64,000 bases of DNA from Prevotella sp. E13-27 (GTDB lineage Bacteria; Bacteroidota; Bacteroidia; Bacteroidales; Bacteroidaceae), in assembly GCF_023217965.1 (NCBI RefSeq), contig NZ_JALPSC010000002.1, positions 1,550,001-1,614,000 of the forward strand, given 5' to 3'. The position numbers and the translations under genes were made by a program. Every line of letters begins with the position of its first letter. The stretch's first letter is position 1. Shown here one piece after another: positions 24,494-42,837 of this stretch. The notes under the pieces were generated by a model. The model worked only from the letters and a program-made list of their open reading frames with translations. It was not told where the DNA came from and searched no databases.

Positions 24494-24527
24494 AATTTGG
24501 TCTTGTCGAATATTTAGACTAAATTTG
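24494..24527 (+). promoter_or_regulatory. Promoter and overlapping operator of the AbiE pair
   Basis: TTTG (24496-24499), 20 bp, TAAATTTG (24520-24527) is a full promoter match. An inverted repeat, AATTTGGTCT (24494-24503) with AGACTAAATT (24516-24525), covers both boxes, as expected for AbiEi autorepression. Confidence 0.7.
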
Positions 24528-24545
24528 CGACAAAAATCCAACGCT

Positions 24546-25163
24546 ATGACATTCGAATCTATTGAAACAAAGATACTTAGTAGTATTAAGAAGCGCGGAA
24601 GGGGTAATCTACTTTTTGCATCCGACTTCATTCGATATGGAGAACAGAAATCCGTTAACAAAGCCTTAGAGCGAATGATGAAGGAAGGATTAATTCTGCG
24701 TATCAGTCATGGTATTTACTATTATCCAAAAATCGACAAAACGCTTGGATTAGGAGTGCTTTATCCTACCTTGGAAGACATTGCTGAAGGCATTGCCAAA
24801 CGTGATAAGGCAAGAATCGCGCCTACAGGACTCTATGCACTAAATCGTTTAGGTTTCTCGACCCAAATTCCAATGAATGTAGTGTATCTTACAGATGGTT
24901 TTAATCGTAAGATAAAACTTTATAATGGGACACACATACAATTCAAGCGCACTTCTACTAAGAATTTTGCTTTTCATTCTAAACTTGCCATGCTATTGAC
25001 TTTTGCATACAAAAGTCTGGGAAAGGAGAATGTTACTCCAGAAATAATGAAGCAGTCTAAGAGCTTGCTAGAAAAGGAGAATAGGCAAATTGTAGAACAA
25101 GACTATAAATTGATGCCAGCTTGGGTATCCTCAATAATAAAATCGCTCTATGCAGAAGAATAA
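24546..25163 (+). CDS. AbiEi-like antitoxin / transcriptional repressor
   Basis: A 205-residue type IV antitoxin. The N-terminal 80 residues form a winged helix (FASDFIRYGEQKSVNKALERMMKEGLILRISHGIYYYP), and the rest matches the AbiEi C-terminal domain, with APTGLYALNRLGFSTQIP and YLTDG. AbiEi binds inverted repeats in its own promoter and counteracts AbiEii. ATG 24546 is chosen because the promoter lies 19 bp upstream. Its end overlaps the toxin start by 14 bp. Confidence 0.86.
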   Translation: MTFESIETKILSSIKKRGRGNLLFASDFIRYGEQKSVNKALERMMKEGLILRISHGIYYYPKIDKTLGLGVLYPTLEDIAEGIAKRDKARIAPTGLYALNRLGFSTQIPMNVVYLTDGFNRKIKLYNGTHIQFKRTSTKNFAFHSKLAMLLTFAYKSLGKENVTPEIMKQSKSLLEKENRQIVEQDYKLMPAWVSSIIKSLYAEE

Positions 25164-26160
25164 TTACTTTGCGCTGACTACCGTTCAACAACGCACCATA
25201 TTAGAACAGACAGCCATCAAGAAGGCATTACCCAAACAAGCTATAGAGAAAGACTTGTGGGTGACTACAATTCTACAAATCGTATTCAGCTTGCCTTGTG
25301 CAGAAAACTTAGTGTTTAAGGGTGGCACATCCCTCAGTAAAGTTTGGGGCCTCATCAATCGTTTTTCTGAGGACATAGACCTTGCCATAGATCGTAGTGT
25401 TTTCGAACTTGATGGTGATTTGACCAAGAAACAAGTCAAGAAATTACGAAAGGCCTCTTCTATCTTTGTTCGCGATGAACTGTACAGCCAATTAGTTGAG
25501 ACAATTAATCATACCTCGCTTAAAGACAAATGTCAGATAGAAGCAGAGCCTGATGGTGATGGCGATGCCACTTATCCTGAACCTCGAAGTATCTTCGTCC
25601 GCTATCAGTCAGTGTTTGAAGACAAGCTGGCTTATATTCCACCCGTCGTCAAGATAGAGGCCGGTGCACGTTCTTTATTGGAACCATACGATGAAGCCCA
25701 GTTATTTAGCATGGTGGAAGAGGTATTGCCTACCATAAGTACGACACAGGTTGATATAAAGATAAAGACCGCAATAGCAGAAAAGACCTTCTTAGAAAAG
25801 GCTTTCCTTCTACACGAACTGTTCTCTGTTAACAAACATGTAGATGCGAAACGACGTTCTCGCCATATATATGACCTACATATGATGATGAAGAAGGGTA
25901 TTGTTAACAAAGCAATAGCAAATGACGAGCTATGGCAAACAATACTTCATCACCGCTCCACACTCACCAGTATGCAAGGTGTTGATTATGATGCTGACAT
26001 CAAAAAGAACATACGCCTCATTCCGTCATCCGAATCCTTAGCAAACTGGGAAAAGGACTATGAAGATATGTCCTCTGCTATGATATATGGCGAGAGGCCT
26101 TCTTTTACTGAATTACTAGAAAGCATGCACAAGTTAGAACTACTATTTAAAAAGGTGTAG
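25150..26160 (+). CDS. AbiEii/AbiGii-family nucleotidyltransferase toxin
   Basis: A 336-residue nucleotidyltransferase toxin of the abortive-infection AbiE type. The core reads LVFKGGTSLSKVWGL and then RFSEDIDLAID, giving the GG-T-x-L-x-K and D-x-D metal motifs. A later conserved segment is RHIYDLHMMMKKG. Family members block growth by modifying tRNA or other targets with nucleotides, protecting the population from phage. It appears intact, as does its antitoxin. Confidence 0.9.
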   Translation: MQKNNYFALTTVQQRTILEQTAIKKALPKQAIEKDLWVTTILQIVFSLPCAENLVFKGGTSLSKVWGLINRFSEDIDLAIDRSVFELDGDLTKKQVKKLRKASSIFVRDELYSQLVETINHTSLKDKCQIEAEPDGDGDATYPEPRSIFVRYQSVFEDKLAYIPPVVKIEAGARSLLEPYDEAQLFSMVEEVLPTISTTQVDIKIKTAIAEKTFLEKAFLLHELFSVNKHVDAKRRSRHIYDLHMMMKKGIVNKAIANDELWQTILHHRSTLTSMQGVDYDADIKKNIRLIPSSESLANWEKDYEDMSSAMIYGERPSFTELLESMHKLELLFKKV

Positions 26161-26480: not shown

Positions 26481-26738
26481 ATGATTGACGAAAAGAAGAT
26501 TGCACAGTATAATATGGAGATGGCAGTACATGCAAATGGAGCTGCTCAGTTTTTGAATGCCTTAATTGGTGGCAAATTTGTGACTCAAGAGCAGGCTCGC
26601 GATATGGCCGATTACATATTGGCGCAAACAAAGAGAAACATAGAAAGTTACCCCTTTGCTTCTCAAGAAGAAAAGGAAACTGAGATACTTCGAAGAGAGA
26701 ACCTGATGAATATGTTGAAATCACAAATGGGATTGTAA
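26481..26738 (+). CDS. Small protein of unknown function, first gene of the operon
   Basis: An 85-residue protein I do not recognise. It is predicted mostly alpha-helical, with a hydrophobic helix around residues 12-25 (HANGAAQFLNALIGG), the segment VTQEQARDMADYIL and a charged C-terminal helix. It has no signal peptide, cysteines or clear DNA-binding motif. The frame starts 22 bp after a -7 box and is followed after 16 bp by the DUF1848 gene, so it is the first cistron of the operon. A regulator or small partner protein are both possible. Confidence 0.65.
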   Translation: MIDEKKIAQYNMEMAVHANGAAQFLNALIGGKFVTQEQARDMADYILAQTKRNIESYPFASQEEKETEILRRENLMNMLKSQMGL

Positions 26739-26754
26739 TATATATTGTTGAAAT

Positions 26755-27822
26755 ATGGCAAGTTGGAGCAAAAAAATACTATCAAGGGAGAATGGCGAAC
26801 ATGTACCGATGCAAGCCCCAATGATAGTTTCGGCAAGCAGGAGTACAGATATACCAGCTTTTTATGCTGATTGGTTCTTCCATCGATTAGAGAAAGGCTA
26901 CTCTGCATGGACGAATCCCTTCAATGGTGTGAAGTCGTATGTATCGTATGAGAATACACGCTTCATCGTGTTTTGGTCTAAGAATCCTCGTCCATTATTG
27001 CCATATCTACATATCCTCAAAGAGCGTAATATTAAGTGCTACGTTCAATATACACTAAACGACTATGAGCAGGAGAAGTTAGAAAAGGTTCCTTCCCTTG
27101 CTTCACGAATAGAGACATTCAAACTATTAGTTGAACAATTGGGCAAGGTCGCAGTTGTATGGCGGTTTGATCCAATGATTTTGACGGATAACATATCTGT
27201 TGAGGATTTGCTTCAGAAAGTTCAAAACATTGGTGACCAACTGAAGGATTATACCGAGAAATTGGTGTTCAGCTATGCTGATATTGCCATGTATCGAAAG
27301 GTGAAACACAACCTTGAAGTAAGTGGTATACCATATCATGAATGGGATACAGAGCAGATGGAAGAGTTTGCCGATAAGCTATCTACCATGAATCGTGAAC
27401 GAGGCTGGAACTTCCAACTGGCGACATGCGGTGAAAAAATAGACATTACAAAATATGGAATATCACATAACCGTTGTGTAGATGGTGACCTTATTACACG
27501 CCTAGCATGGGATGATAAGGATCTCATGAAATTCATGAAGGTGAAGATAGAAGATGTTCCTGCTCCTTCTTTGTTTGGTAATTCCGAATTACCAGAGGGA
27601 GCCATACTGTTGCCTAATAACCACTATTTCATTAGCACCCACAAGAAAGATCCTGGTCAGCGCCAGTTCTGTGAGTGTATGGCATCCAAGGATATTGGCG
27701 AATATAACACCTGTCCACATCTCTGTGAGTACTGCTATGCTAATGCTACAAAAGAATTGGCGTTGCAGAATTGGAAACGTCATCAAGAGAATAGATTTTC
27801 GGAAACTATAACAGGGAAATAA
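26755..27822 (+). CDS. DUF1848 protein with C-terminal CX3CX2C cluster
   Basis: A 355-residue DUF1848 protein. The N-terminal part has PMIVSASRSTDIPAFYADWF and RFIVFWSKNPRPLLPYL, typical of the family. The C-terminal part has five cysteines: C306, C308, C320, C324 and C327. The last three, in CPHLCEYCYAN, have exactly the CX3CX2C spacing of radical-SAM [4Fe-4S] clusters, but at the C-terminal rather than N-terminal end. The biochemical role of the family is not established. The next gene starts 1 bp after the stop. Confidence 0.85.
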   Translation: MASWSKKILSRENGEHVPMQAPMIVSASRSTDIPAFYADWFFHRLEKGYSAWTNPFNGVKSYVSYENTRFIVFWSKNPRPLLPYLHILKERNIKCYVQYTLNDYEQEKLEKVPSLASRIETFKLLVEQLGKVAVVWRFDPMILTDNISVEDLLQKVQNIGDQLKDYTEKLVFSYADIAMYRKVKHNLEVSGIPYHEWDTEQMEEFADKLSTMNRERGWNFQLATCGEKIDITKYGISHNRCVDGDLITRLAWDDKDLMKFMKVKIEDVPAPSLFGNSELPEGAILLPNNHYFISTHKKDPGQRQFCECMASKDIGEYNTCPHLCEYCYANATKELALQNWKRHQENRFSETITGK

Positions 27823-27823
27823 T

Positions 27824-30800
27824 ATGGCACTAAATATTTTCAAAATTTCAGAATACAACCATATTGCGGAGACAAGGCAGTTTGAATCTATATGCCAGTT
27901 GCTGCAACAAAAGTATGGGGATTCTTCAGAAGAGTGTATTCTTGTTGGCAATTATAATATTGAAGGTGTTGAGTTAGACGCCCTTCTTATTACTGCAGGT
28001 GGTATACGAATATTAGAATTCAAAAACTGGGGTGGTCATATTATTGCTCGTGAAAATGGTTCATGGACTTCTAACAATATGATTATTGAAGGAGGAGCCC
28101 GCGAGAAAACGCCATTTGAACAAATCAGACTAAATAAAAGCCGAGTCACAAAAGGGCTTAACAAACTGTTAGGAGTTCAGCCCCAAATGATTAGTGCAGC
28201 TATTATTTTCTGGCAAGATGCTGACATTGATACAACAGGTCTATCAGATACGGTGACTACATGGCTCACTGTTTGTGACAACCAACACCTATCTTACATT
28301 CTGAACGGTTTAAAGACCAACGCAATGTCTGCAGACTTTGTCGCTTCAATACCTCTAAAGCTAAAGTTAGGAGAGTTCTCCATAAAATCAGATAGGGAAT
28401 ATAGAACTCCTATCAATGAAACATACGAACCTGAAGCATCTACCAATTTCTTTGATGAATTGGAAACAGCCATTAGTCAGATTCCTAATTATCGCAAGAC
28501 GTATAATGCGATGAATATGGTTTTCAAAAAATGTCTGAGCCAAAAAACAAGTGGAACGCGTATTAATTTTGGCGGCGATTTTGCAAAAACTGACTATCTA
28601 TTAAAAGAGTTTGGCGCATCTAAGAGGTTGATAAAATCAACTAACGACACACGTGTACGACTGAGAAAACGTTATGAGTTGACAGAAGATAACTTACAGA
28701 AATATTGTCTGTTTGACCTTAAAAACCTTTGCCAGTTTATAGCATTTATATATAAGACTGAGATTCCTGTCCGACTGATAGAACTTTTCCCCACTGAGAA
28801 AATACCATATTATACTCCATTGCTCGTTGGAGAATGTATGAGATGTATCGTGGAGTGTTGGGATGACGAATATGTCTATGTCAGGACAGAAGATTCTAAC
28901 GATGGCGAACTTACAAAGGTTTGTTATGCACATGGGAATAAGTTCTATGACTATGACTGGACTTATTTGAAAGATATATTCTACAAGGATGCCCAGCTGA
29001 ATCTTGTACGTCCAAGAGAAGAGAATGGTGTAATATATCCAGAGTTGACAATATTTGAGCCTGATTATTTGGTAAATATATCAACTGTTGCCCGTTGCTT
29101 CACCAATTATGCAGATTCTCCATTTGTGGATTTAATTAAGAAGTTGGAACCACAAAAAACAACGGAAGCGATTGTTTTGGGTAACTTAGCTGGGCAATTA
29201 TTAGATGAGTCTATTCACCGATTGCCAAATACTCGCCCTTATTCTGATAGTGTTAAGGATTTCTTTAAGGACAATGCTATAAGTCTATTGACTGCCAATG
29301 TTAGCCCTACGTTCCATCAAGATGCACAAAGACAGAAACAGAATATTGCTCAAGCAATTCATAATACGTTGCCAAGAGAAGTCCAAGGCTTTGATTCAAG
29401 AAATGGTATAGTAGAGCCATCCTTTTTCTCGGAAATGCTGGGATTACAAGGGCGTATGGATTATCTCCAATTGGATTATAAAGTTCTTATGGAACAGAAA
29501 TCTGGAAAAGGAGCATTTCCATTCGACAACTTTGTTAAGCCCAGGCATACGAATGAACATTTTGTACAAATGTTACTCTATGTTTCCTTGATTCGATATA
29601 ACTTCAGGGAAATATACGAAAGGGTTAAAAACGATTTTCATGCCTATCTATTATATTCAAAATATAGTGATAGTTTATTGGATCCTGGATACACAGCGCC
29701 TAGACTGTTGTTTGAAGCTATTAAGATTAGAAATGGACTTGCATGGACAGAAATGCTTTATACACAGCCAAGTGGCTATAGGATTCTTGACGGTTTATCA
29801 CCAGAGGATTTAAATAAAAAACACCTTACGGGTAACTTCTGGGATAAATGGATACGTCCACAATTAGCCTCTGTTCTCGATCCTATACAACAGGCTTCGG
29901 ATTTGGAAAAGGCTTATTATTTCTGTTTCCTAACATTCATTTCTAATGAGCATGTGATGTCGAAACTGGGAAATAAGACCAAAGAAAGTTCTGGGTTTGC
30001 GGCTACTTGGTATAACTCTTTGGAAGAAAAGCTTCAGGCTGGAAACATATACGACAATTTGAAGCTGCGATCGCCAAATAGGGAAACAACAGGGCGAATT
30101 AAAAGCGTAGAATTAGGCTTCTCAGAAAATGAAGACAATGACATGTCTAACTTCCGAGTTGGTGACATTGTTATTCTATACCCATACACTGAAGGAAAGG
30201 AGCCAGATGCCCGCAAGACTATGGTACACCGCTGTACAATAGAGAGTATTGGGACAGATACCATCAAACTTACACTGAGAGCTGCACAATCGGATAATCG
30301 TGTATTCTTAGCCCAGATGAATAACCCGTGGGCCATCGAGCACGATTTTATGGAGTCTTCATATAGTTCACTTTACAAAGGTATGCAAGCTTTCCTTATG
30401 GCTCCAAAGGAAAGACGTGATTTACTATTGCTGCAGAGAGAGCCTGAAACAGATAAAACAATTACCCTAAAAGGCAGCTATGGAGAGTTTGATAACCTGA
30501 TGTTAAAGGTAAAAAGAGCAAAAGAACTATTCTTAATTATTGGACCTCCAGGAACAGGAAAGACATCTTTTGGCCTTCTTAATACCGTCAAAGAAGAACT
30601 GTTGGAACCAAATGCCAGCATCTTGCTATTGTCATATACAAATAGAGCTGTTGACGAAATCTGCAGCAAGTTAGCTGAAGAAGGAATTGACTTTATCCGT
30701 ATCGGAGGAGAGTTTAGCTGTGGTGATAGCTATAAAGCGAACTTGCTCAGTACGAGGGTCGAACAAAGTAACAATTTGCCTAACCTTAAGACCGATTTGC

Positions 30801-31288
30801 TTCAGACAAAGGTTTTTGTAGGAACCACTACGGCTCTGAACAGCAATATTGCCTTATTCCAACTGAAACATTTTACCCTTGCAGTTATAGACGAAGCATC
30901 TCAAATACTGGAACCTCATTTGATAGGTCTGCTTAGTGCTCAGAAGGAAGGCTTGCCGGCTATCAAGAAATTTGTGCTCATCGGTGATCATAAACAATTG
31001 CCTGCCGTCGTACAGCAAACGGAAGACGTAAGTCGGGTGCAAGATGTATTGCTAAACAGTATTCATTTGACAGATTGTCGTTTGTCATTGTTTGAACGTC
31101 TACTTAAGAAATATGCAGATAATGAGGATGTGGTTGATATGCTTAAAAAGCAGGGACGAATGCACCATGACATCGCCATTTTCCCCAACTATACATTTTA
31201 CAACAATTTATTGGAGGAAGTGCCTCGACCTCATCAGAATGTCGTTTTACCTGTAAGGGGAAATGGCGAGAACGGTATTACTGACTAA
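27824..31288 (+). pseudogene. NERD / Cas4-like nuclease / SF1 helicase protein, 5' part (split by IS)
   Basis: The first 1154 residues of a giant protein. An N-terminal NERD nuclease domain has LDALLIT...ILEFKNW (D52, E65, K67). Residues 460-590 show the Cas4/Dna2-type nuclease pattern H465, GRMD (D546), EQK (E557, K559) and QMLLY (Q582, Y586). A Dna2/Nam7-like SF1 helicase follows, with Walker A GPPGTGKT (907-914), VIDEAS near 1024 and GDHKQLP near 1055. An IS4-family element ends the frame at a TAA supplied by the insertion. Rejoining with 32937 onward gives about 1629 residues. Confidence 0.88.
31278..31284 (+). repeat. Target-site duplication, left copy (first IS)
   Basis: TTACTGA, repeated at 32929-32935. 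The match can be read as nine bases (TTACTGACT) because the IS end may begin with CT. Confidence 0.75.
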
Positions 31289-32928
31289 AGTTTCCCACCT
31301 TTTCGGAGTGGCCTAAATATTTGATTTTCAATTTGTCTCATACTACGCGGCCTCCTCGTACTCTTCCAACGCTTCAGCCATGACGATGTACTTGTCGAGC
31401 ATTTTCTCATTGCAGACGATGTTTGCAGACAGTTCTTTATAGGTGACTCCCAGCATATCCGCCAGTACATCGAGCAACCGTTTGATGACGGCCAGCAGCC
31501 GTTGCCAGAGCGTGAGTGCCATCAGGTCAGCCCTTTGCTCTTCGAACAAGGCTCCCATGGTCTCATAGTCGTTGAGCCGTTTGTCAAGGGCCAGTACGAT
31601 GTAGGTCATGTGGCAGAGCGTGCAGTCGGCAATCTGTCCGTCGAAGTCCCTTCCCTGATAGCGTCCGAGGCCGAGATACTGCTTGCTCTCTTTCGCCAGC
31701 ACCTCTATGCTCCACCTGATCTGGTAGGTCTCGAAACACTTGGTGATTCCCATTGTCAGGTCGGTGGTGACGATGATGTTCCAGTTCTGGTTGTGGCCGT
31801 ACTTGATGAAGAAGATACGTACAATCTCCTTACCCATGAATCCGTTGACGATGAAGTAGCGGCTGTTGTACTTGGGCATCTTCTTTGCCTCAGTGCGCTC
31901 GTAGCGCGAGATCATCTCATATACGTTCTGATGGAATCCACGCACATAGTATCTCCTATTATCCATTTTACCCATACCGAGGAAATGCACGCTTCCGTCG
32001 CCTATGGCACGAACGGCATGTATGAATTCCTCGCAGGTGAACCAACTGTCGCAAAGGGCGTATGCGGCACGGAGCCCAGCCTTCCACGCGCGTTGCATCA
32101 TGGCTACTGCGCAGTCGGTCTTCTTCATGTCCAGTTCCTTATGCCTTGCATGGTCGGGGTTCTTTTCATCACGCTTCTTGGAGAACTGCCCCTTACGTTC
32201 ATCCCCGCTCAGGCCGTAGTTGCTCTCCTTGCCCTTCTCGCGGTGCAGGGAGAAGTCAACGGGTATCGTGGTACGCCCGTCGAAGTAGGCCAGTATCAGT
32301 TCCTTGAAGCCCAGCACGCACTTGTGTCTCACATGGTCGAACACGCGGCTGACACCCTCGATTGAAACGCCAGTCTTTTCCAATGTCGTGTCATCGATGA
32401 TGTAGCAGCGGGGCTGCTCCGTCTCCTCAGCATGCTCCTTGCGCAGGATGGCGAAGAAGCGCACACACATGCGAAGCAGCAGGCAGCGCCAGTCCATAGT
32501 CTCACGATTAAGCATGCGGTAGTAGCAGTTCTTGCCAGTCTCGACCAAGGCATGGAAGTCCTTGCGGTACATACCGAAGACACTCTCGCCGTTGAAGCGG
32601 AACAGGCACAAAGAGATGATCAGCTGCAAGGCAGACACGCCCTGCTGCTTCTCCAAACCGAGTCGACGGAGGGCCTGAGAGAGGCCAAAACGACCAAAGG
32701 TCGATAAAATATCGTGGTTCACACGCTCTTTTTCGTTCAAAAGTTTGTACATCTCGTGGATTTTCTCTAATTTTGCAGTCATAACAGAAGTCTTGAAGCG
32801 TTTCGCATTTGTTTTGTTTAGCGACTACAAATTTACGAAATTTTTCTCGATTTCTGTTTTGTTTTGCTGATTATTTCATACTCAATTCGCTATGTCTTTA
32901 TCACCTGTCAAAGGGTGGGAAACTTCAG
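31285..32928 (-). mobile_element. IS4-family insertion sequence inside the helicase gene
   Basis: About 1644 bp with imperfect terminal inverted repeats: the left end CTAAAGTTTCCCACC and the complement of the right end CTGAAGTTTCCCACC match at 14 of 15 bases. It carries one transposase gene on the minus strand and is flanked by a 7-bp (or 9-bp) duplication. Removing it with one duplication copy restores the helicase frame (GITD-LLKTR). Confidence 0.9.
31343..32782 (-). CDS. IS4-family DDE transposase
   Basis: A 479-residue transposase. The catalytic acids are in YIIDDTTLEKTG (first Asp), ALCDSWFTCEEF (second Asp) and YQIRWSIEVLAKESK, which fits the IS4-family Y-x2-R-x3-E-x6-K signature with the catalytic Glu. 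The N-terminal region (FGRFGLSQALRRLGL) is typical of this group in Bacteroidota. The frame is intact, so the element may still be mobile. Codon use is more G+C-rich than the surrounding island genes. Confidence 0.93.
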   Translation of the reverse strand: MTAKLEKIHEMYKLLNEKERVNHDILSTFGRFGLSQALRRLGLEKQQGVSALQLIISLCLFRFNGESVFGMYRKDFHALVETGKNCYYRMLNRETMDWRCLLLRMCVRFFAILRKEHAEETEQPRCYIIDDTTLEKTGVSIEGVSRVFDHVRHKCVLGFKELILAYFDGRTTIPVDFSLHREKGKESNYGLSGDERKGQFSKKRDEKNPDHARHKELDMKKTDCAVAMMQRAWKAGLRAAYALCDSWFTCEEFIHAVRAIGDGSVHFLGMGKMDNRRYYVRGFHQNVYEMISRYERTEAKKMPKYNSRYFIVNGFMGKEIVRIFFIKYGHNQNWNIIVTTDLTMGITKCFETYQIRWSIEVLAKESKQYLGLGRYQGRDFDGQIADCTLCHMTYIVLALDKRLNDYETMGALFEEQRADLMALTLWQRLLAVIKRLLDVLADMLGVTYKELSANIVCNEKMLDKYIVMAEALEEYEEAA

Positions 32929-34364
32929 TTACTGACTTGCTTAAAACACGTAGAATTGTCTTCGTTGATGCTGAGCAACCAAAAGATTCTGTATCTGATA
33001 AGGTTAATCAAACCGAGGCAGAGATGATAGCGGCAACGGTTGTGAAGATATACGAAATAGAGAAATTGAATGGATTCAATGTCAATAGAACCGTAGGTGT
33101 AATCGTTCCCTATAGGAATCAGATAACAACGGTTCGTAAGGCTATAGACAACTACAGGATTGAGCTATTGCACGATATAACAATAGATACTGTTGAGCGT
33201 TATCAAGGCTCCCAGAGGAAGTATATAGTCTATGGATTCACCGTTCAGAAGTATTATCAACTCAGTTTCCTTACAAATAATGTATTTGAAGACGAAATAG
33301 ATGGTTGCATAGTTGACCGAAAGCTGAATGTCGCCATGACTCGTGCAGAGGAACATTTGGTGATGTTTGGTAACGCAGAGCTGCTATCGAATAACTTTAC
33401 GTTCTTCAAACTAATGGAGTTCGTACGAAGCAAACATGGTTTCTTCCGTATTAGGAAGGATGACTTTGTCAAAGGTAATTTTGAAGTATCACAGTATGAT
33501 TCAGAAGAACTTGACCTCAGTAAAGCAACATTTACCGTCACAGAAAAGTTCAATGATGTATTCAACAAATATATCCTTCAGCCAATCAAAGACGGTTCTG
33601 GCGAAGAATGGCCTTCATTAGTATTTGGCCATGACATGGGTACAAATCTGAATGCTATTGGTTATGGAAGAATCAATTTCTCAAATCAGCTTCGATTGTT
33701 TGATCAACAGATGTCGCCAGAAAGGCAGGTACTGATTTACTGCTATTACATTATGCGACAGCACTATTGTAGTAGTCGTAACATCTATACAAGCTATAAG
33801 GACTGGTTGAATACACAGATTACTTCAGTGAATCAACGAGTACAGATGATAGACATCGGTTGTGGTCCGGCAACTTGTGGTATAGTTTTTGCAGAAATCT
33901 TTAAAGATGCAGCCCACAACATGGTCTATACCGGAATTGATGTTTCTACTGAAATGAAACGAATGGCCAGGAAATTATTAGATGATGTCTTCAATGGGGA
34001 AATCAATTGTCAGATGTTTAATTCCTTTAATGAACTAGACGCATCATATTGGGAAGGATGCTCTGAACTGCCATCCCTGGTCATTTTCAATATGTCATAT
34101 TTCTTCTCAAATGTATCTGCACAGTTCACGGAGCGTCTGGCGATTCAGATAAGTGAGATAATGAAGAACCATCCTCTCAACAGGTATGTTTTCTTTATAC
34201 AACATTCTGAATGTGACAAGAAATTGAACTCATTCAAAGTATTTAAGCGGATTCTGTCTCCTTATATAAAGGTCATTAAGAGTGAAGACACATACTTCTC
34301 CTATGTACTAAACTATAAAGAGAGAATGCTCGAATTCTGCTATGATATATATTGCAGCAAATAG
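32892..34364 (+). pseudogene. SF1 helicase C-terminal half plus methyltransferase domain, 3' part (split by IS)
   Basis: The 3' continuation of the gene at 27824; native codons resume at 32937, after the IS end. The helicase part has VIVPYRNQI, DTVERYQGSQ (motif V) and LNVAMTRAEEHLV (motif VI). A Rossmann-fold methyltransferase domain follows, with MIDIGCGPATCG (SAM motif I) near residue 318 of this fragment and YTGIDVS (motif II). The first 15 codons of the open frame are IS sequence. The next gene starts 24 bp downstream. Confidence 0.86.
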
Positions 34365-34388
34365 ATATTACACTAGAAAAAGTATTGT

Positions 34389-37300
34389 ATGCCAAACTTC
34401 ATAGATATATTCCGAAATAAAGGCCAAATCTCATTCACAGGAATGAGAAATGTAGCCATGTCCCTGCTTCCTACTGACAAAATGAAGCTGGATAAGCTAT
34501 ATAACGACCTTAAGCGTGGAACTGGTATTTTGGACGATGATGATCATCTGAATATGTATCTTCGCAGTTTTGGCAAGATGCACAAGGCCAAGCTTGATGC
34601 CGCTTTCAGTTGCATACAGAATCCATCGGAACTTTTTGGCTCATCTGTAGAAATCTATGATTGGGGTTGTGGACAGGGAACTGCAACTATCTGTTTGCTT
34701 GATTTCCTGAAAGCTAAAAGAATAGCTGCTGACATACGTTCAATCAACTTAATAGAGCCATCTGCTGCAGCTGTTGATCGAGCCTCAAAAGTCATATCTT
34801 GTTATGGAAGTTATGCTGTCAATACCGTTGTTAAAGAGTTTGACCCTCTGAATACAGGGGATATTACCCCATCGACATTCCTTAAGATTCATCTCTTTAG
34901 TAATATTCTTGATGTAGATGCTTTTGACCTTGCAAAGTTCATTCACTTTTTCCAGCAATCATTTACTGGCGATAACTACTTTATTTGCGTGGGGCCATAT
35001 TATAGCAACAACAAGCGAGTTGACGAGTTCATTGCAGCAACAGATCCTGACACGATGTTTGCTGTTGTCAATAAGGACAGAGGTGGATGGCAGAATGACT
35101 GGACTATATCTCTTCGGGTATTCTTTAAAAACTTCCAGCGTATTGAAACGGTTGAAGATATTAGAAAGCGTATCGAGGAATCACACAAAAAACAGCAATT
35201 CTTTGCTGGTTACATTCTGGATGCCATTGAGGAAGAATATAAAAACACGGATATTGAGAACGAAACGGAGGGTTTATATCATTCCTTATCGTCTTTCGAT
35301 GTCAAATCAAACTTTCCTTTGGACAACAATACAGATTGTGATTCAAAACTTGCGGTTCTTGCCAACATCATATCAAGAGGTTTACCGACCAAGGCTCCCA
35401 TATATATTGAGGAACTGTTTTCTAAGCATTTCCATATTTCAAGAAAAACAGAAGAAGGCTCAAGTATCAAGTTCTCCTCGAATCATGCTATATCCAAGGA
35501 AGACATAAACGATGCATTGCACGTCATTGATCCCAGATTTGATATTGAATCATACAATGGCGACATGTTGGAAAGTAGTTTCGAGAAAGCTTTTATCGAG
35601 CGATACCTTAAAGGCTCAGGAAGCGAATATCTCATACAGATATTGGAACCACAGCGTCCTCTTTCCTCAATTGTCAATATACCAGATAGAAAATTCAGTA
35701 AGGAACAGCGTGTTGACTTTGCTTTGGAAATTCCTTACGGAGATTCAAGAACTGGTTTTATCTTGGAATTGGACGGTAAACAGTATCACTCCAATATATT
35801 CCAGAGGCTAAGGGATGAGCGCAGAGACAGAATGTCCCTCAATGGTGGGTGGGATACTTATCGTATAGACCAGATTCATAATAACGATTTCATTGTTAAC
35901 TGGGAGAAAGAAGCCTATGCAAGCAAGTTCCTCACAACGTTGAAAAAGAATTATAAGAGGACGTTGTCTGGAGAATGGAATAAAACTCTTCAGATTGTGC
36001 TTGCCCCCCTTGCAATCGCTCGAATTGAGAGAATACTGGTAGAAGCAATGATGTCAGCGGCATTAGATATCAATGCACAGGAATGGAACATCGTTATTAT
36101 AGAAAGGGATGTTCCTTGTGCTGCCATTGCAATAGAAGACTTAAAGGACAAGTACATGCATTTGTGCGAATTGTCCAATTGTCCTGCAGGATTGCCAGAG
36201 ATACGACTTACTATTGTTTCTAGCGATGAATTTAAGGATTCACCGTTGCATTTGGATAAAAAAACAGTCTGCGACATTCCTTCGAGTACATATGACCTAT
36301 GCATTGACATCTCTATGTTGCTCCGTGACAATATCGATGCATTGCCACTTGCTGTAAGCGCTAAGGCTTTTTATCTTATCCGTTCTTCGCATTATCAAAA
36401 ACGGGAAAGAACGATTTGCTCCGCAGAAAACATACAATATCCTGCTCTTGTTACTAAAGATGGTACTGGCGCTTATAAGAATATTAAGGAGCGTGAAGAT
36501 GTACTGACGTATTTCTTACGAGACATCTTCCGTAAGCCCTCATTCCGTCCTGGGCAATTACCTATACTTAGTCATACATTAGCAGACAAAACGACAATAG
36601 GTCTTTTGCCTACTGGTGGTGGTAAATCTTTAACTTATCAATTGTCTTGCCTCTTACAACCAGGAGTTTCTATTATAGTCGATCCGCTGGTATCTTTGAT
36701 GGTTGACCAAGTTCGTGGACTTTGCGACGCTCGTATAGATGCTTGTGAATGTGTTCACAGTGGAATGGACGCCAAGGAAAAAGCCAAGAAGCTGAACCTT
36801 CTACAGAATGGTGCAACCTTAATGGTGTTGCTTTCTCCTGAGCGATATATGATGGAGAATTTTAGGGACAGTCTGATAACAATGACAGAAAAGAACCATA
36901 TCTATTTCTCTTATGGCGTAATAGACGAGGTTCATTGTGTTTCAGAATGGGGACATGATTTCCGTCCGTCATACCTACACTTAGGACGTAACATGATTAA
37001 CTATATGAAAACGAGGTCTGGTCGTCCTCTATCAATCATTGGTCTTACGGCCACCGCTTCTTTTGACGTTCTTGCAGATGTGGAAAGAGAGCTGACCTTG
37101 GGAGGAAATCTTACGATAGACAGCGGAACGATTGTTCGCCCAGAGAATGATGAAAGAAAGGAATTGACTTATCGCATAATTGAAGTACATTCTGATTATG
37201 ATAAGTTACGAGACTCCAATGACCCAAATGTGTTAAATGCCAACATTGATAGAGAACTTCAGAATATAGTAGCAGATACGAAAAAGAAGAAACTGGTAGA

Positions 37301-39578
37301 ACTTATAGGAAATGTACCGCAAGATATAGAAACAATTAACGAAGCATCAATAGACTCGCCATGTAGGATCGCGGATTTTTCAACGGAGGCATTCTTTTTA
37401 CCATCATCCGAAAAGAAATATGACAATGCAGGAATCGTTTTTTGCCCACATGCTCATGGTTCCTTGGGAGTTGTTAGTAGTCGTCATGGCAATCATCCTG
37501 GTATATCTTCTTCATTACTTTCCGAGGCTAAGTATTTAAAAATAGGAACTTTTATCGGAGGCGATAAGCCGTCTGGTGACATGAAACTATTCAACGATAA
37601 CGAACAGAATCTCATGGTTGCTACCAAAGCATTTGGGATGGGCATAGACAAGCCCAACATCCGCTTTACCGTTAATTTCAACCATCCGTCATCAATTGAA
37701 AGTTTTGTTCAAGAAGCTGGTCGTGGAGGGCGTGATCGGAAAAATGCTATAGCATATATATTGTTTGATCCTACAGAATATGTACACCTAACAGCAGACA
37801 AGATAAATGATATTCGCTATGTCATGGGGAAAGAAAAAGATCCTACTTGGCTAGAACATTATCTTAATAAATTCATACTATTTGACGATTTCTTGAATGT
37901 TTGCATTCAGAATAATTGTTCGGAAGAAGACAGTCGCTCTATTATCAACATCTTACGTGATAGAGATTTCATAGAGAATATCGACAAGAATATCGACATG
38001 TGGTTCCACAACAATTCTTTCAGAGGTTTGTACAAGGAAAAGGTTATCCTCTGGGAGATGACCGACAGACTTATGAATGTCAAGCCTAATCACCTCAGAG
38101 CCATTCAAGCACGATTAAGAGACGAATTAGGTAATGAGGATCTTTTGTTGAGAGTTAATGTAGCAACGAACTCTATTACAATAGTATCTGAGGAAGAAAA
38201 CGAAAAGCAATACGGTTACATCTATCTCAGTGACCTTCAGGCTAATTATCGATATACAAATTTCACGTATAATGTATGTAAGGTCATTTCTGAGGCACTA
38301 ATCAGTATATTATCAGAATATGAAGATCACTCAGCAAGAGCTCTTCTTCGTCCTATAGATGGTGAAGATGACATAATGGAGGGCATATATGCTGCGATGT
38401 CGAAAGCTGATAAAGATGGCTACGTGTTTGTAACTGTTTCTTGGGAGAACAACTTCCAGCAAGATGCCGATGGATTCGAGCGTTCGATAAAAGCTGAGAT
38501 AGAGAGAATCGCAGTTCAGAAGCAATGGAAGAATATAGATGAGGATCATTATGGGAAATTAAAACTGAACAAGGTGGGTGATTTTGATTCGTTAATTGCC
38601 CAGATTGCTAAATGCTCAAATGATTCAAGTTGGCTTAGGTGTCATGGAGACGAGGCTACATACAAATCACTTAAGAGGATATTCTGTCAAAAGAGAGACA
38701 AAGCAGACACAGACAAAGCGATATACAGACTGTGCTGTATTGGTTTGGTTGAGGATGTAACGATAGATTATCTTTCGGAAACATATGAGTTGAAGATTCA
38801 TAAGCAGACTGATGATGAGTTCAAGGCTCACATGTTTGATTTCTTTAGGAAATACTATTCTTCTGAACAGGCACAAAAGAGGGTTGATGAGATAAATTCT
38901 CAGGACGGTCGTAACTACTTGGACAAGTGTTTAGGTTATCTAACAAAATTCGTCTATCAGAATCTGGAAAAGAAGCGTTATCGTGCCATAGAGGATATGC
39001 GAATAGCATGCAAAGATAGTGTTTTAAAACGAGCAGAGTCAGGGAATGACAATTGGCTTAAAGAGTTTATCCACCTATATTTCAACTCAAAATACGCCAG
39101 AGAAGGATACACGGTGGAAGACAAGCCTTATTCCCTTACCTATGACACAGATGATCAGGGAAGAGATGACTTTGATATAGTGAAGAAGTATATCGACATC
39201 ATGAATAAGGACTCATCAGGCAGTGAGGTTGACAATGTAAAGCACTTATACGGTGCAACACTCCTGTCTTTACGTGCACACCCTGACAATGCAGCACTTC
39301 AATTACTTTTCACTTATTGCGTGACCTTCTTAGGAGTCGGAACTAACGACACATTAAGGACAGATGCCATTAAAAACTTTCATGAAGGTTTTATGTCACT
39401 TTCAAAGAAGGACGGAATGGATGTGTGGGATTGTATTGACGAATATACAGCCATGATAAAGCCTAAAGTACATGATCAACAATTGGAGGAGAGCATTGTA
39501 AATCAAGGTAAGGACAGTATACTTCTATTCATTCATGAGGAGAAATTAAATGAGATAGCAAATAAATATTTAAATTAA
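34389..39578 (+). CDS. Giant methyltransferase-like / PD-(D/E)XK nuclease / RecQ-like helicase fusion
   Basis: A 1729-residue protein. Residues 85-135 show a methyltransferase-like motif, YDWGCGQGTATICL, then LIEPS. Residues 440-495 look like a DUF559/Vsr-type PD-(D/E)XK nuclease: D443, then ELDGKQYH (E460, D462, K464). An SF2 helicase follows, with LLPTGGGKS (K746), VIDEVH (846-849, RecQ-like), GLTATAS, VATKAFGMGIDKPN and SFVQEAGRGGRD near 1107. The DEVH box, SEWGHDF and the last motifs point to RecQ. Between the lobes lies a long insertion (about 930-1060), and 500 further residues follow that I do not recognise. The frame is intact. Confidence 0.88.
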   Translation: MPNFIDIFRNKGQISFTGMRNVAMSLLPTDKMKLDKLYNDLKRGTGILDDDDHLNMYLRSFGKMHKAKLDAAFSCIQNPSELFGSSVEIYDWGCGQGTATICLLDFLKAKRIAADIRSINLIEPSAAAVDRASKVISCYGSYAVNTVVKEFDPLNTGDITPSTFLKIHLFSNILDVDAFDLAKFIHFFQQSFTGDNYFICVGPYYSNNKRVDEFIAATDPDTMFAVVNKDRGGWQNDWTISLRVFFKNFQRIETVEDIRKRIEESHKKQQFFAGYILDAIEEEYKNTDIENETEGLYHSLSSFDVKSNFPLDNNTDCDSKLAVLANIISRGLPTKAPIYIEELFSKHFHISRKTEEGSSIKFSSNHAISKEDINDALHVIDPRFDIESYNGDMLESSFEKAFIERYLKGSGSEYLIQILEPQRPLSSIVNIPDRKFSKEQRVDFALEIPYGDSRTGFILELDGKQYHSNIFQRLRDERRDRMSLNGGWDTYRIDQIHNNDFIVNWEKEAYASKFLTTLKKNYKRTLSGEWNKTLQIVLAPLAIARIERILVEAMMSAALDINAQEWNIVIIERDVPCAAIAIEDLKDKYMHLCELSNCPAGLPEIRLTIVSSDEFKDSPLHLDKKTVCDIPSSTYDLCIDISMLLRDNIDALPLAVSAKAFYLIRSSHYQKRERTICSAENIQYPALVTKDGTGAYKNIKEREDVLTYFLRDIFRKPSFRPGQLPILSHTLADKTTIGLLPTGGGKSLTYQLSCLLQPGVSIIVDPLVSLMVDQVRGLCDARIDACECVHSGMDAKEKAKKLNLLQNGATLMVLLSPERYMMENFRDSLITMTEKNHIYFSYGVIDEVHCVSEWGHDFRPSYLHLGRNMINYMKTRSGRPLSIIGLTATASFDVLADVERELTLGGNLTIDSGTIVRPENDERKELTYRIIEVHSDYDKLRDSNDPNVLNANIDRELQNIVADTKKKKLVELIGNVPQDIETINEASIDSPCRIADFSTEAFFLPSSEKKYDNAGIVFCPHAHGSLGVVSSRHGNHPGISSSLLSEAKYLKIGTFIGGDKPSGDMKLFNDNEQNLMVATKAFGMGIDKPNIRFTVNFNHPSSIESFVQEAGRGGRDRKNAIAYILFDPTEYVHLTADKINDIRYVMGKEKDPTWLEHYLNKFILFDDFLNVCIQNNCSEEDSRSIINILRDRDFIENIDKNIDMWFHNNSFRGLYKEKVILWEMTDRLMNVKPNHLRAIQARLRDELGNEDLLLRVNVATNSITIVSEEENEKQYGYIYLSDLQANYRYTNFTYNVCKVISEALISILSEYEDHSARALLRPIDGEDDIMEGIYAAMSKADKDGYVFVTVSWENNFQQDADGFERSIKAEIERIAVQKQWKNIDEDHYGKLKLNKVGDFDSLIAQIAKCSNDSSWLRCHGDEATYKSLKRIFCQKRDKADTDKAIYRLCCIGLVEDVTIDYLSETYELKIHKQTDDEFKAHMFDFFRKYYSSEQAQKRVDEINSQDGRNYLDKCLGYLTKFVYQNLEKKRYRAIEDMRIACKDSVLKRAESGNDNWLKEFIHLYFNSKYAREGYTVEDKPYSLTYDTDDQGRDDFDIVKKYIDIMNKDSSGSEVDNVKHLYGATLLSLRAHPDNAALQLLFTYCVTFLGVGTNDTLRTDAIKNFHEGFMSLSKKDGMDVWDCIDEYTAMIKPKVHDQQLEESIVNQGKDSILLFIHEEKLNEIANKYLN

Positions 39579-39583
39579 AGGAT

Positions 39584-40522
39584 ATGCCATACGATATTAA
39601 TTCAGCATTAGAGAGACTGGAGCAGAACCTAAAGGATCTTGACTCAGCGAAGAAACAGGTAGAGGCTACCGTGAATGCCAGCGACAAGCTACAACAGGTC
39701 GTTTCTGGCTATGTTAACACTCTCGTTTCCGTTCAAGAGGGACTGAAACAATGGGAGAAGGAACTTCAAGGTATTCAAGTTGTTAACGATACAGCATTCA
39801 AAAATGCCATTGAGCAAATGATGGCAACATGCTCAGAGGTGGTTGATTTATTTAAATCCAAACTTGACGAAACCAAGGATGGATTTGAAGCCGATACGAA
39901 TAGTTTCTTAGTTAAGTTAGAAAGAGAGAACGGAAAGTTGTCTGAACAGGTTAATGCATTGAAGATCCTTGGTTCTTCTTTTGATAATGCCATCAAAGAT
40001 GTAAACAACGTTAAGGCTTTATTGGAAACCCTATCAAATGACTTAAAAGAATCACAGAGGTCACAGGATGAAGTTCTTGACGTGATAAAGGAGGATGTTG
40101 GTAGAATCTCGAATACAACATCAAACACAATAAAGGGCTATGTTGATGAGCAGACACGCAAAATAGAAACTCTTCATTCAGGGAAAGATACAAAACTCCA
40201 GGAACTTGCGAATGCCATATTCTCAGTAAAACAGGTTTGCGATGATATAAAGGAGAAATCAAATTCTATTGAAAACTGCTGTCAAGATATTAGATCTAAC
40301 TCTGACAGCCTTCTTAGGGAAGCCTTAGCCACTAAAGAATTGAATCATACCATTATTCAAAAAATAGAAAATAGCATAAGCTCAAATGCTACGAAGGCAG
40401 AAGAATTACAGCAAACCATAAAGGCATCTGTCGATGACATTGTTCACCAATCAAACATTAACAGATGGATAATCATAGCAGGCATTATAATACTGGCGGC
40501 ATTGCAATTCATTGCAAAATAA
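39584..40522 (+). CDS. Coiled-coil protein with C-terminal membrane anchor
   Basis: A 312-residue protein, last in the operon, 5 bp after the RecQ-like gene. Residues 5-285 are almost wholly heptad-like and charged (for example LERLEQNLKDLDSAKKQVEA), without cysteine-rich or enzymatic motifs. A single hydrophobic segment at the very end (WIIIAGIIILAALQFIA) would tail-anchor it in the cytoplasmic membrane with the coiled coil inside the cell. It could tether or oligomerise the complex. The assignment is structural only. Confidence 0.78.
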   Translation: MPYDINSALERLEQNLKDLDSAKKQVEATVNASDKLQQVVSGYVNTLVSVQEGLKQWEKELQGIQVVNDTAFKNAIEQMMATCSEVVDLFKSKLDETKDGFEADTNSFLVKLERENGKLSEQVNALKILGSSFDNAIKDVNNVKALLETLSNDLKESQRSQDEVLDVIKEDVGRISNTTSNTIKGYVDEQTRKIETLHSGKDTKLQELANAIFSVKQVCDDIKEKSNSIENCCQDIRSNSDSLLREALATKELNHTIIQKIENSISSNATKAEELQQTIKASVDDIVHQSNINRWIIIAGIIILAALQFIAK

Positions 40523-40536
40523 GCACAAAATAAGTT

Positions 40537-40552
40537 TTCACAAGCCTTGTGG
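40537..40552 (-). repeat. 16-bp inverted repeat flanking the helicase operon, right copy
   Basis: TTCACAAGCCTTGTGG, the exact reverse complement of 26390-26405. It lies 15 bp after the stop codon of the coiled-coil gene and could also act as a weak hairpin, although no T-tract follows. Confidence 0.8.
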
Positions 40553-40586
40553 GATGCGTATATATTAGGAATAGACGATATTTGAG

Positions 40587-40594
40587 TATCTTTG
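40587..40594 (+). promoter_or_regulatory. Promoter -7 box of the ADP-ribosylglycohydrolase gene
   Basis: TATCTTTG, 23 bp before the original start codon at 40618. It is now cut off from most of the gene by the second IS. Confidence 0.6.
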
Positions 40595-40617
40595 CAACAT
40601 GTAAATGACAGATGCGT

Positions 40618-40638
40618 ATGAAGAATTATTTGATAAGC
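40618..40638 (+). pseudogene. Original 5' end of the ADP-ribosylglycohydrolase gene
   Basis: Seven codons, MKNYLIS, that join in frame to EAIGDIAGSAYEG at 41959 once the IS and one target-site copy are removed. This restores the normal N-terminus of the family, whose first motif is the GDxxGSxYE segment. Confidence 0.8.
40630..40638 (+). repeat. Target-site duplication, left copy (second IS)
   Basis: TTGATAAGC, repeated exactly at 41950-41958. Confidence 0.88.
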
Positions 40639-41949
40639 CACTAGTGTCCGGTTAAATTTTTCCGAACGTTAATTAAATGTTTAAATTTCAATGAGATACA
40701 GCGATTTAAAAATTTTCCGATTTGATTTTTTATCTTTGTACTGTCTCATATATAAGATAGCACAGGATATGAATGCCGGAAATACTGTATTCTCGCAACT
40801 GATGTCTCTCATCCCTGACTACGAGCTCAGGAAATGTATTGACAGATATAGAGGGGATTTTCATGCAAGACGATTCACTTGCCGTGACCAGTTCCTTGTC
40901 ATGAGTTATGCTCAGCTGACCAGCAGCGCAAGCCTTCGTAGCATAGAGGCTCAGTTGACTGCTTTCAACTCCAAGTTGTATCATGCCGGTCTGAAGGTGA
41001 TGCCCAAGTCCACTCTCGCCGACATGAACGAGAAGAAGGACTGGCGTATCTATCAGGACTACGCAATGGTACTTGTCGAGAGGGCTAAAGTCCTGTATAA
41101 AGATGAATACTATCGGTTGGGAATTGACAATATGGTGTATGCCTTTGACAGCAGTACCATCAACCTGTGTCTGCATCTCTGTCCATGGGCGAAGTTCCAT
41201 CATGACAAAGGTGCTTTCAAGATGCACACTTTGATTGATGTAAAGAACAACATACCCAACTTCATCATGCTTACTCCTGGCAATGTGCATGATACTCAGG
41301 CTATGGACAGCTTGCCTGTAGAAGCAGGGGCTTACTATCTGATGGATAAAGGCTATGTGGACTTTGACCGTCTGTTCCGTCTCTTCCAACAGCAGAAGGC
41401 TTACTTTGTAACCAGAGCAAAGGACAACATGAAATATTCCGTATTCGAGGCAAGAGAGGTTGACAGGCAGACTGGCGTCATCTCTGACGAGTCCATCAGT
41501 CTTACTGGTCTCTTTACAGCCAAGAAGTACCCTGATTTGTTGCGTCTGGTCGTCTATGAGGACTTTGCGCAGAACGTAGTGTATCGATTCCTGACGAATG
41601 ACTTCACCCTTGAAGCAATTACCATTGCGGAACTGTACCGAGAGCGCTGGACTATCGAAACGTTCTTCAAATGGATCAAGCAGCACCTGCACATCAAGAC
41701 GTTCTATGGGACGTCCCAAAACGCAGTCTTCACACAGATATGGATTGCCATCTGTGACTACCTGCTGCTTATTATTGCTCTGAAGATGTATCATATCGAA
41801 CAAAATCTTTACATATTCTCTAATGTCATCGGCCAAGTTCTCTTTGAGAGGACTCCGCTGAATGAACTTTTTGACAAACCAATTATTAATCAAAATCCGG
41901 AAGATGACCGCCAACTTTCGCTTTGGTGAAATTTAACCGGACAGTAGTG
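40639..41949 (+). mobile_element. IS4-family insertion sequence in the ADP-ribosylglycohydrolase gene
   Basis: 1311 bp bounded by 21-bp terminal inverted repeats: CACTAGTGTCCGGTTAAATT at the left, and CACTACTGTCCGGTTAAATT as the complement of the right end (one mismatch). A 9-bp duplication flanks it. It carries one transposase gene. The transposase differs from that of the first IS, so these are two separate insertions. Confidence 0.94.
40691..41929 (+). CDS. IS4-family transposase with DUF4372-like N-terminus
   Basis: A 412-residue DDE transposase. The N-terminal NTVFSQLMSLIPDYEL region resembles the DUF4372 domain. Catalytic residues are in VYAFDSSTINLCL (first Asp), YLMDKGYVDFDRL (second Asp) and YRERWTIETFFKWIKQHLHIK (Y-x2-R-x3-E-x6-K with the catalytic Glu). 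A nearer start, MNAGNTVFSQ (about 40769), is also possible. The stop codon lies within 20 bp of the right inverted repeat. The gene looks intact. Confidence 0.93.
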   Translation: MRYSDLKIFRFDFLSLYCLIYKIAQDMNAGNTVFSQLMSLIPDYELRKCIDRYRGDFHARRFTCRDQFLVMSYAQLTSSASLRSIEAQLTAFNSKLYHAGLKVMPKSTLADMNEKKDWRIYQDYAMVLVERAKVLYKDEYYRLGIDNMVYAFDSSTINLCLHLCPWAKFHHDKGAFKMHTLIDVKNNIPNFIMLTPGNVHDTQAMDSLPVEAGAYYLMDKGYVDFDRLFRLFQQQKAYFVTRAKDNMKYSVFEAREVDRQTGVISDESISLTGLFTAKKYPDLLRLVVYEDFAQNVVYRFLTNDFTLEAITIAELYRERWTIETFFKWIKQHLHIKTFYGTSQNAVFTQIWIAICDYLLLIIALKMYHIEQNLYIFSNVIGQVLFERTPLNELFDKPIINQNPEDDRQLSLW

Positions 41950-42837
41950 TTGATAAGCGAGGCAATAGGCGATATAGCGGGGAGTGCTTATGAAGGCAAA
42001 TCCCGCCGTATAAAAGACTATGATAAAGTGAAAATGTTTAGCTCAAGAGCCCACTTCACAGATGATACAGTGCTTACATTTGCATGTGCAGAAGCATTCA
42101 TTGACAAACTTGATATGACAATGAATCTGTGGAAGTGTGCAAACGAACATCGCCATGCAGGTTTTGGGAGCAAGTTCAAGTTGTGGATGGCCAGTCATTA
42201 TCCGAAGCCTTACCGCAGTCTTGGCAATGGCTCTGCCATGCGTTGTTCATCAGCAGGATGGTTGGCGCAAACGGAAGAAGAGTGCATTCGTATGGCACAT
42301 GAAACAGCAGCCCCCACACACAATCACCCAGAAGGTTTCAAGGGCGCAGAAGCTACAGCTCTCGCCATATTCCATCTGAAGAATGGTGAAGATAAAGAGT
42401 TCGTTCGTAAACAGATTCTTGACAAATACTATCCGGACTGGTCAAATAAAAAGTATGCGGATTTCCATGACTCGTACTCATTCAACTCCACTTGCGCAGG
42501 TACTGTAGGGCCTGCTATCATCTGTTTCATAGAATCCAAAGATTATGTTGATTGTATCAAACTCGCTATTTCCCTCGGCGGAGATGCTGATACTCTTGCC
42601 GCTATAGCGAGTCCGATGGCATACGCCTATTACAAGAAGATGCCCGATGCTCTTGTCTATCAAGCGTTGAAGAAATTACCAGATTGGATGGTTAACGTGA
42701 GTGAAAGATTTGACGACATTGTTAATAAAGTGGCAAAAAAAAAATTGGGGACGGTTCTGCTGATCCACTTTGAAGGAGTTGAGGTACACTCCATCCAAAT
42801 GTCATTCTGCTCCAAGACTTACTCATACATCATGTAA
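41923..42837 (+). CDS. ADP-ribosylglycohydrolase-family protein, N-terminus replaced by IS sequence
   Basis: The protein keeps the family metal site: SEAIGDIAGSAYEG, HFTDDTVLTFACAEA (TDD), NGSAMRC and GGDADTLAAIASPMA (GDAD). Family members remove ADP-ribose from proteins or nucleic acids using two Mg2+. The frame now opens inside the IS right end, where TTG 41923 or GTG 41926 could start VKFNRTVVL before the native residues, so a fusion protein may still be made. The last 30 residues after a run of A9 (near 42737) are unlike the family and may be acquired sequence. Confidence 0.82.
   Translation: MVKFNRTVVLISEAIGDIAGSAYEGKSRRIKDYDKVKMFSSRAHFTDDTVLTFACAEAFIDKLDMTMNLWKCANEHRHAGFGSKFKLWMASHYPKPYRSLGNGSAMRCSSAGWLAQTEEECIRMAHETAAPTHNHPEGFKGAEATALAIFHLKNGEDKEFVRKQILDKYYPDWSNKKYADFHDSYSFNSTCAGTVGPAIICFIESKDYVDCIKLAISLGGDADTLAAIASPMAYAYYKKMPDALVYQALKKLPDWMVNVSERFDDIVNKVAKKKLGTVLLIHFEGVEVHSIQMSFCSKTYSYIM

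Follow-up and report, generated by a model that had tools for sequence, protein, structure and literature searches.

An apparently unnamed defense-associated system in Prevotella sp. E13-27 with methyltransferase-bearing helicases beside a likely methyl eraser, DUF1848 or AlkB

PsyrTA and RqlHI are related systems, each with a RecQ-class helicase that carries an extra domain of the toxic type and is encoded together with a partner. RqlH is reported to be a RecQ-like helicase with a genotoxic fused domain, held in check by RqlI, which is encoded in the same operon (PMC4670107). A RecQ-class helicase with an extra domain of putatively toxic type and a partner gene also occurs in the operon of Prevotella sp. 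E13-27 analyzed here, which occupies positions 26481–40522 of a 64,000-nucleotide stretch of contig NZ_JALPSC010000002.1 (positions 1,550,001 to 1,614,000; hereafter the window) and was described as five genes, g1 to g5. The PADLOC model of PsyrT matches the helicase of g4 with an E-value of 1.9e-51 in two stretches, the best at 707–918. No PsyrA partner turned up when g5 and the other window proteins were scanned with PADLOC. Comparison with relatives points to an apparently unnamed defense-associated system, in which helicases with a methyltransferase stand beside a likely methyl eraser, either an AlkB-like dioxygenase or a DUF1848 protein. This pairing is visible only by comparison and was absent from an earlier reading of the same DNA (the original prediction), as was the division of the two enzymes by oxygen use.

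The recurring unit and its candidate methyl erasers

The 1729-residue product of g4 (34389–39578; all features lie on the plus strand unless stated otherwise) is a methyltransferase–nuclease–RecQ helicase. Its N-terminal domain, MT4 (34389–35168), has a methyltransferase fold according to a fold search and carries motif I as DWGCGQG together with an HxFSNILD motif. It is followed by a Vsr/MTES_1575-type nuclease segment (35661–35918), identified by a weak Pfam match and the family alignment, by a RecQ-type helicase core with intact motifs (36486–37778; DEAD and Helicase_C), and by the C-terminal region used as a search probe (38676–39575). No nuclease appeared among the matches listed in the g4 fold search, which excludes nothing, and a comparison of the g4 sequence with the PDB returned helicases. 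Further upstream, g2 (26755–27822) encodes a DUF1848 protein of 355 residues (PF08902, E 9.6e-90) that is predicted to be radical-SAM-like. Downstream, g5 (39584–40522) encodes a predicted coiled-coil protein of 312 residues, for which no curated Pfam family reaches its cut-off and only weak coiled-coil-type matches were obtained; a C-terminal membrane helix (about 40457–40513) is predicted from its hydrophobic sequence.

A genome scan with the g4 C-terminus yielded 79 loci from the best 80 of 169 relatives, which together with 28 loci from earlier searches made a pool of 107; removal of seven without a helicase-bearing g4 in the stretch and of four duplicates left 96 g4 loci (below, L numbers denote loci and G numbers genomes). 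Among phylum genomes, 14 of 296 contain a relative of g4, as do 11 of 399 family genomes, the window's own genome being included in both. The next gene lies on the same strand in 91 of the 96 loci, and in 84 of these 91 it begins within 60 bp and encodes a g5-like protein with a hydrophobic C-terminal helix, which makes g4–g5 the core. Together with the recurrence of g4 across genomes, this speaks for more than a chance arrangement. The usual order among family relatives is DUF1848–g4–g5, and in the relatives read the recurring unit is DUF1848 (or AlkB) with g4 and g5. The proposal that all five genes form the unit was therefore rejected: g3 is present in two of these relatives, g1 in neither of those two. 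In these, L100 and L102, as in the window, g3 lies between DUF1848 and g4, and it is intact there (1628 and 1627 residues); it is an optional insert.

The family alignment shows that g4 itself is variable, both MT4 and the nuclease being present or absent. No nuclease is recognized in 26 of the 59 methyltransferase-bearing rows of the g4 tree, and nuclease–RecQ forms account for 25 of the 28 methyltransferase-free loci. With the insertion sequence in g3 omitted, window positions 27019–37151 are 92–97% identical to L100 and L102, and beyond them the likeness drops to 70–75%; L091, which is without g3, matches 36423–40638 at 88%. The loci are mosaics.

The main result comes from the 87 loci with a visible 5' side, nine of the 96 having been excluded because g4 lies at the 5' edge (the window is not counted). 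Erasers were sought within four genes with small seed profiles, from 10 DUF1848 and 2 AlkB sequences, which remote homologues may escape. MT4 is present in 59 of the 87 loci, and 58 of these 59 have a DUF1848 and/or an AlkB-like dioxygenase gene, mostly directly adjacent (DUF1848 only in 43, AlkB only in 10, both in five). At the 59th, L019, a 111-residue ORF just upstream looks by eye like a C-terminal remnant of DUF1848. The same search found DUF1848 or AlkB at none of the 28 loci without the methyltransferase. L101 is scored as nuclease-free in the 87-locus count solely because its g4 spans two ORFs, and is omitted from the tree. For L120, nested among the MT4 forms, a joint loss of MT4 and DUF1848 seems likely.

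AlkB matches PF13532 (2OG-FeII_Oxy_2) at 115.1 and 85.4 bits against a cut-off of 31.2, and its active-site residues are kept, by eye, in 17 of 17 aligned sequences (HxD and H, with RxNxxxR in 15 and RxSxxxR in 2). An AF2 model of DUF1848 (pLDDT 90.8) has radical-SAM enzymes as its best VIA rows, and the protein may resemble a radical-SAM barrel. Five cysteines in a CxC plus CX3CX2C arrangement (C306, C308, C320, C324 and C327; 27670–27735) are invariant in 34 of 34 aligned DUF1848 sequences, and the CX3CX2C cluster motif (C320, C324 and C327) is thus present, though located at the C-terminus. Comparison of the DUF1848 sequence with the PDB yielded no informative match, and the fold search listed no spore photoproduct lyase among its matches, which excludes nothing. 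In other contexts, DUF1848 adjoins umuC, encoding an SOS polymerase, in three of 10 loci sampled; these (L216, L217 and L222) come from a single family, f17, in which DUF1848 is common. No paper on DUF1848/PF08902 was found in the openly licensed literature, and one may be in print elsewhere.

AlkB requires O2, and at g4 loci the two enzymes divide by the oxygen use of the host. Heme-copper oxidase (PF00115, COX1) is encoded in 15 of 15 genomes with AlkB-bearing g4 loci versus none of the 43 with DUF1848 only (the latter including the window's genome, with L118 left out), and the anaerobic reductase NrdD (PF13597) in one of the 15 versus 36 of the 43.

The methyltransferase is also found on other proteins. 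MT3, the C-terminal domain of g3 (about 33582–34361), is homologous to MT4 (hhalign probability 95.5, E 1.6e-8; two unrelated controls gave 0.2). Genes joining a Dna2-type helicase to MT3 have AlkB directly downstream in L090 and a short DUF1848 directly downstream in L178; L185 has neither eraser, and its SAM motif I is degraded. A UvrD-type helicase fused to MT4, with DUF1848 directly upstream, occurs in L232, a human fecal contig from a phage collection, and in L234 from IMG/VR (DUF1848 called by Pfam in L232 and by eye in L234, the L234 helicase by PADLOC); with the MT4 probe, L235 gave a match at the same place and score as L234. Such a gene of 874 residues, its helicase part assigned by eye, also lies 839 bp behind g5 in L094 and could share that locus's DUF1848. 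Stand-alone forms were found as well, namely MT3 followed by AlkB in L184 and in three of three Picosynechococcus plasmid matches, and MT4 followed by AlkB at 9 bp in two of two Moraxella osloensis plasmid matches (L229 checked by Pfam). The genomes G218 and G012, which have MT3 with AlkB, are oxidase-positive, and the eraserless G307 is oxidase-negative. Searches for MT3 found it in four of 395 phylum genomes and, in the family of G218, in G218 alone (1 of 159); the whole g3 query has matches in 37 of 296 phylum genomes. A Dna2-like paralogue of g3 in the window's own genome (C1:215374–218154; 38%) covers just query residues 223–1151.

In L184, MT3–AlkB immediately follows a fused 2CompART/2CompARG protein and precedes a Wadjet-like cluster, the latter recognized by eye; the Moraxella plasmids L229 and L230 have a viperin-family gene near the MT4–AlkB pair. 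An AAA_33/WYL-type protein precedes each of the cyanobacterial MT3–AlkB pairs (L228, L231 and L227), and upstream there is a RAMP-type CRISPR gene in L228 and L231 and a reverse transcriptase in L227.

A defense role is inferred from context, with neighbor statements being counts around a few seeds. The AlkB form lies between the BREX genes pglX and pglZ–brxL in L138, L157, L158 and L166 (L158 checked with PADLOC), and BREX genes adjoin L163 and L167 (= L024). Type I restriction subunits are in the stretch in L021, L126, L127, L137 and L161. In the window, a pair of the AbiEi/AbiEii type (24486–26160; PADLOC E 5e-64 and 6e-95) lies directly upstream of the operon. These relatives in or beside BREX, type I and Wadjet-like genes support the original prediction of a multi-component, apparently unnamed, defense-associated system, as does the finding that PADLOC hits correspond to parts only.

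When plasmids were searched by tblastn with g4, most of the 20 matches listed covered the helicase only, and phage records gave only helicase-level matches among the 20 listed. In IMG/VR, g4 probes found one contig, the phage-like L019 (= L170), with g4, g5 and the DUF1848 remnant; the MT4 probe found this contig again together with L234 and L235. Probes from g3 and MT3 found no viral contig, nor did g1 have a viral relative in the IMG/VR probe search, and a viral origin was rejected on these grounds.

A proposed mechanism and its alternatives

We tentatively favor, as a finely balanced proposal, a defense-type operon made up of a membrane-tethered RecQ-class helicase, a methyltransferase effector and a DUF1848 or AlkB eraser. 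The coiled-coil, tail-anchored g5 would hold g4 at the membrane as a tether or assembly platform. There, g4 would bind and unwind invading nucleic acid and attack the invader through its fused nuclease, its fused Rsm22/METTL17-like methyltransferase, or both. The methyltransferase is a candidate effector because it can substitute for the nuclease, and it may act by placing a damaging methyl group on the opened strands. The adjacent DUF1848 or AlkB would be the matching eraser, with a presumed substrate and chemistry, that guards the cell's own nucleic acid and is needed only where the methyltransferase is present and intact. AlkB uses O2; through radical-SAM chemistry, DUF1848 would achieve the same without oxygen. 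In this scheme g3 would be a second methyltransferase-bearing helicase that shares the same eraser, broken by an insertion sequence in this genome.

A wider claim is possible, though we lean slightly against it: DUF1848 may be the oxygen-independent, radical-SAM counterpart of AlkB, and the Rsm22/METTL-like methyltransferase with AlkB or DUF1848 may form a portable writer–eraser weapon, found on at least three unrelated helicases as well as free-standing, in which the methyl mark is itself the blow. Swaps between O2-dependent and radical-SAM enzymes are known from HemF/HemN and AcsF/BchE. If true, this would give DUF1848 a function, offer a directly testable explanation of how AlkB-type methyl lesions could be reversed in anaerobes, where oxygen is lacking, add methylation as a weapon with its own antidote to the bacterial defense repertoire, and leave annotation pipelines a gene pair to recognize.

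Some observations temper the linkage and the oxygen split. The linkage of methyltransferase and eraser is observed, yet it represents few independent events, since the tree (87 rows, window included) needs just two changes for MT4 and three for the eraser. Lineage is likewise a confounder of the oxygen split, because AlkB needs two changes on the tree. Nor is that split a simple one: five g4 loci have both enzymes in oxidase-positive genomes; in the oxidase-positive G707, AlkB belongs to the g4 locus (L158) while the Dna2–MT3 gene is accompanied by DUF1848 alone; and DUF1848 in other contexts is found in oxidase-positive genomes in four of five tested. AlkB therefore tracks oxygen use, but oxygen use does not exclude DUF1848.

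Of the alternatives, one follows the logic of restriction–modification, with the methyltransferase and DUF1848 or AlkB as successive steps that create or adjust a modified base on host DNA, while helicase and nuclease attack unmarked DNA. A protein that unites methyltransferase, nuclease and helicase would suit this, as would DpdF, a component of a DNA-modification system, being the best PADLOC helicase hit, and the restriction genes among some neighbors. It is nevertheless unlikely, as the 26 of 59 methyltransferase-bearing rows without a recognized nuclease are hard to square with marking self and cutting the rest, and suggest instead that the methyltransferase is the effector. Nuclease–RecQ forms without any methyltransferase exist, too, and the SNILD motif differs from the (D/N/S)PP(Y/F) motif of DNA amino-methyltransferases. 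Another alternative is an RNA-directed abortive response, in which detection of invading DNA by the helicase would lead the Rsm22/METTL-like enzyme to modify rRNA or tRNA, and the eraser would undo this once the threat is over. We consider this distinctly improbable given the fusion to three DNA-type helicases (RecQ, Dna2-like and UvrD-like) and to nucleases; in the methyltransferase fold search 145 matches pass E 0.001, so that the fold is silent on substrate.

A role in DNA repair or plasmid maintenance instead of immunity would fit the repair-like character of all parts, the proximity of DUF1848 to umuC mentioned above and the several loci on plasmids or phage contigs; the patchy distribution among genomes, the mosaic sequences, the four loci inside BREX and the AbiE and restriction genes nearby make it very unlikely. 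The lowest weight of all goes to counter-modification, by which the eraser would strip methyl marks from the invader so that the nuclease or a neighboring system can act. Although AlkB loci are in some cases embedded in BREX or close to type I systems, the eraser tracks its own methyltransferase, and the nuclease–RecQ locus L021, beside a type I system, has none. The tethered helicase with a methyltransferase effector and its eraser stays our preferred, tentative interpretation.

Gene layout and surroundings in the window

Re-reading of the sequence agreed with the gene coordinates, the shared strand and the gaps given earlier, which measure 16, 1, 24 and 5 bp from g1 to g5. It also bore out that g3 is split by an insertion sequence (31285–32928, no strand assigned), recognized by its inverted ends and target duplication; its transposase (31343–32782, minus strand) belongs to DDE_5, and its 7-bp target duplications lie at 31278–31284 and 32929–32935. 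The N-terminal part of the interrupted gene (27824–31288) holds NERD and a Dna2-like/SF1 helicase (Pfam NERD, AAA_11 and AAA_12), and the C-terminal part (32892–34364) the end of the helicase and MT3 (AAA_12 and a weak Methyltransf_31 match). The domain assignments of the original prediction largely stand, with the qualification that the Pfam matches of the g3 methyltransferase and the g4 nuclease fall below cut-off. The 85-residue g1 (26481–26738) has no family at curated cut-off in the Pfam, PADLOC and NCBIfam scans and no counterpart upstream of DUF1848 in L176 and L177 (= L100/L102), both of which have the g2–g3–g4 block; judged from these comparisons, it is probably not part of the system.

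Just 3' of g5 is a second transposase (40691–41929; DDE_Tnp_1 and DUF4372), followed by an ADP-ribosylglycohydrolase gene (41923–42837). The gene next to g5 in L088 is 85% identical to the latter, and the system of L091 has a similar copy on either side. Farther downstream, a UvrD-type helicase and a PD-(D/E)XK protein (48136–54230) form an AddAB-like pair. Elsewhere, a methyltransferase-free g4 variant (L027) lies near macro-domain (DarG-like) and DarT-like genes assigned by eye, variable proteins of 318–433 residues adjoin DUF1848 or g5 in L079, L080, L083 and L084, and in L080 the gene ahead of DUF1848 encodes a trypsin-like protein, a similar ORF being present in L232.

Comparison with known systems

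PADLOC was run on eight window proteins and eight proteins of relatives, and NCBIfam on six window ORFs and one relative. In these scans no model matched the set; only single parts were found, plus AbiEi/AbiEii for the upstream pair. Membership in known systems was accordingly rejected, with DpdF, PsyrT, MkoA, PLuB_AAA, C3a159, C3a187, C3a193, CARF_2OG and RTasDUF1848 all representing parts only. Literature searches for anti-phage AlkB with RecQ and for radical SAM, methyltransferase and RecQ found no matching system in openly licensed text; one may be in print elsewhere.

DpdF, a component of a DNA-modification system, is among the best PADLOC hits of g4 and in its NCBIfam list, but the likeness is a helicase match alone, at 142.9 bits versus the NCBIfam DpdF cut-off of 550. 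The helicase region of g3 resembles Mokosh and PLuB, matching MkoA (5e-26) and PLuB_AAA (3.3e-30). In PADLOC, parts of g3 fit MkoA/MkoC over the helicase region only, with no full-length Mko match; unlike these systems, g3 adds NERD, a Dna2-like region and the methyltransferase, and DUF1848 adjoins it. The model RTasDUF1848, which PADLOC files under DRT, is matched by g2 (1.8e-40), whereas no reverse transcriptase is seen beside the window system.

Other parts correspond to PADLOC models whose C3a names denote type III CRISPR accessory genes. The methyltransferase model C3a159 is matched by the stand-alone MT3 of Picosynechococcus (E 6.8e-125), C3a187 (NERD plus UvrD) by the helicase part of L234, and C3a193 by those of g4 and L127. 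The 2OG part of CARF_2OG is matched by the AlkB of L127 and L229, its N-terminal part being uncovered. C3a159, C3a187, C3a193 and CARF_2OG are all single-protein models, in which a pairing is not stated. RqlHI and PsyrTA remain similar in plan, but in these a PRTase serves as the toxic domain and is bound by the partner, whereas the window system has a methyltransferase domain, an enzyme as partner (DUF1848, or AlkB in relatives) and an extra membrane coiled coil.

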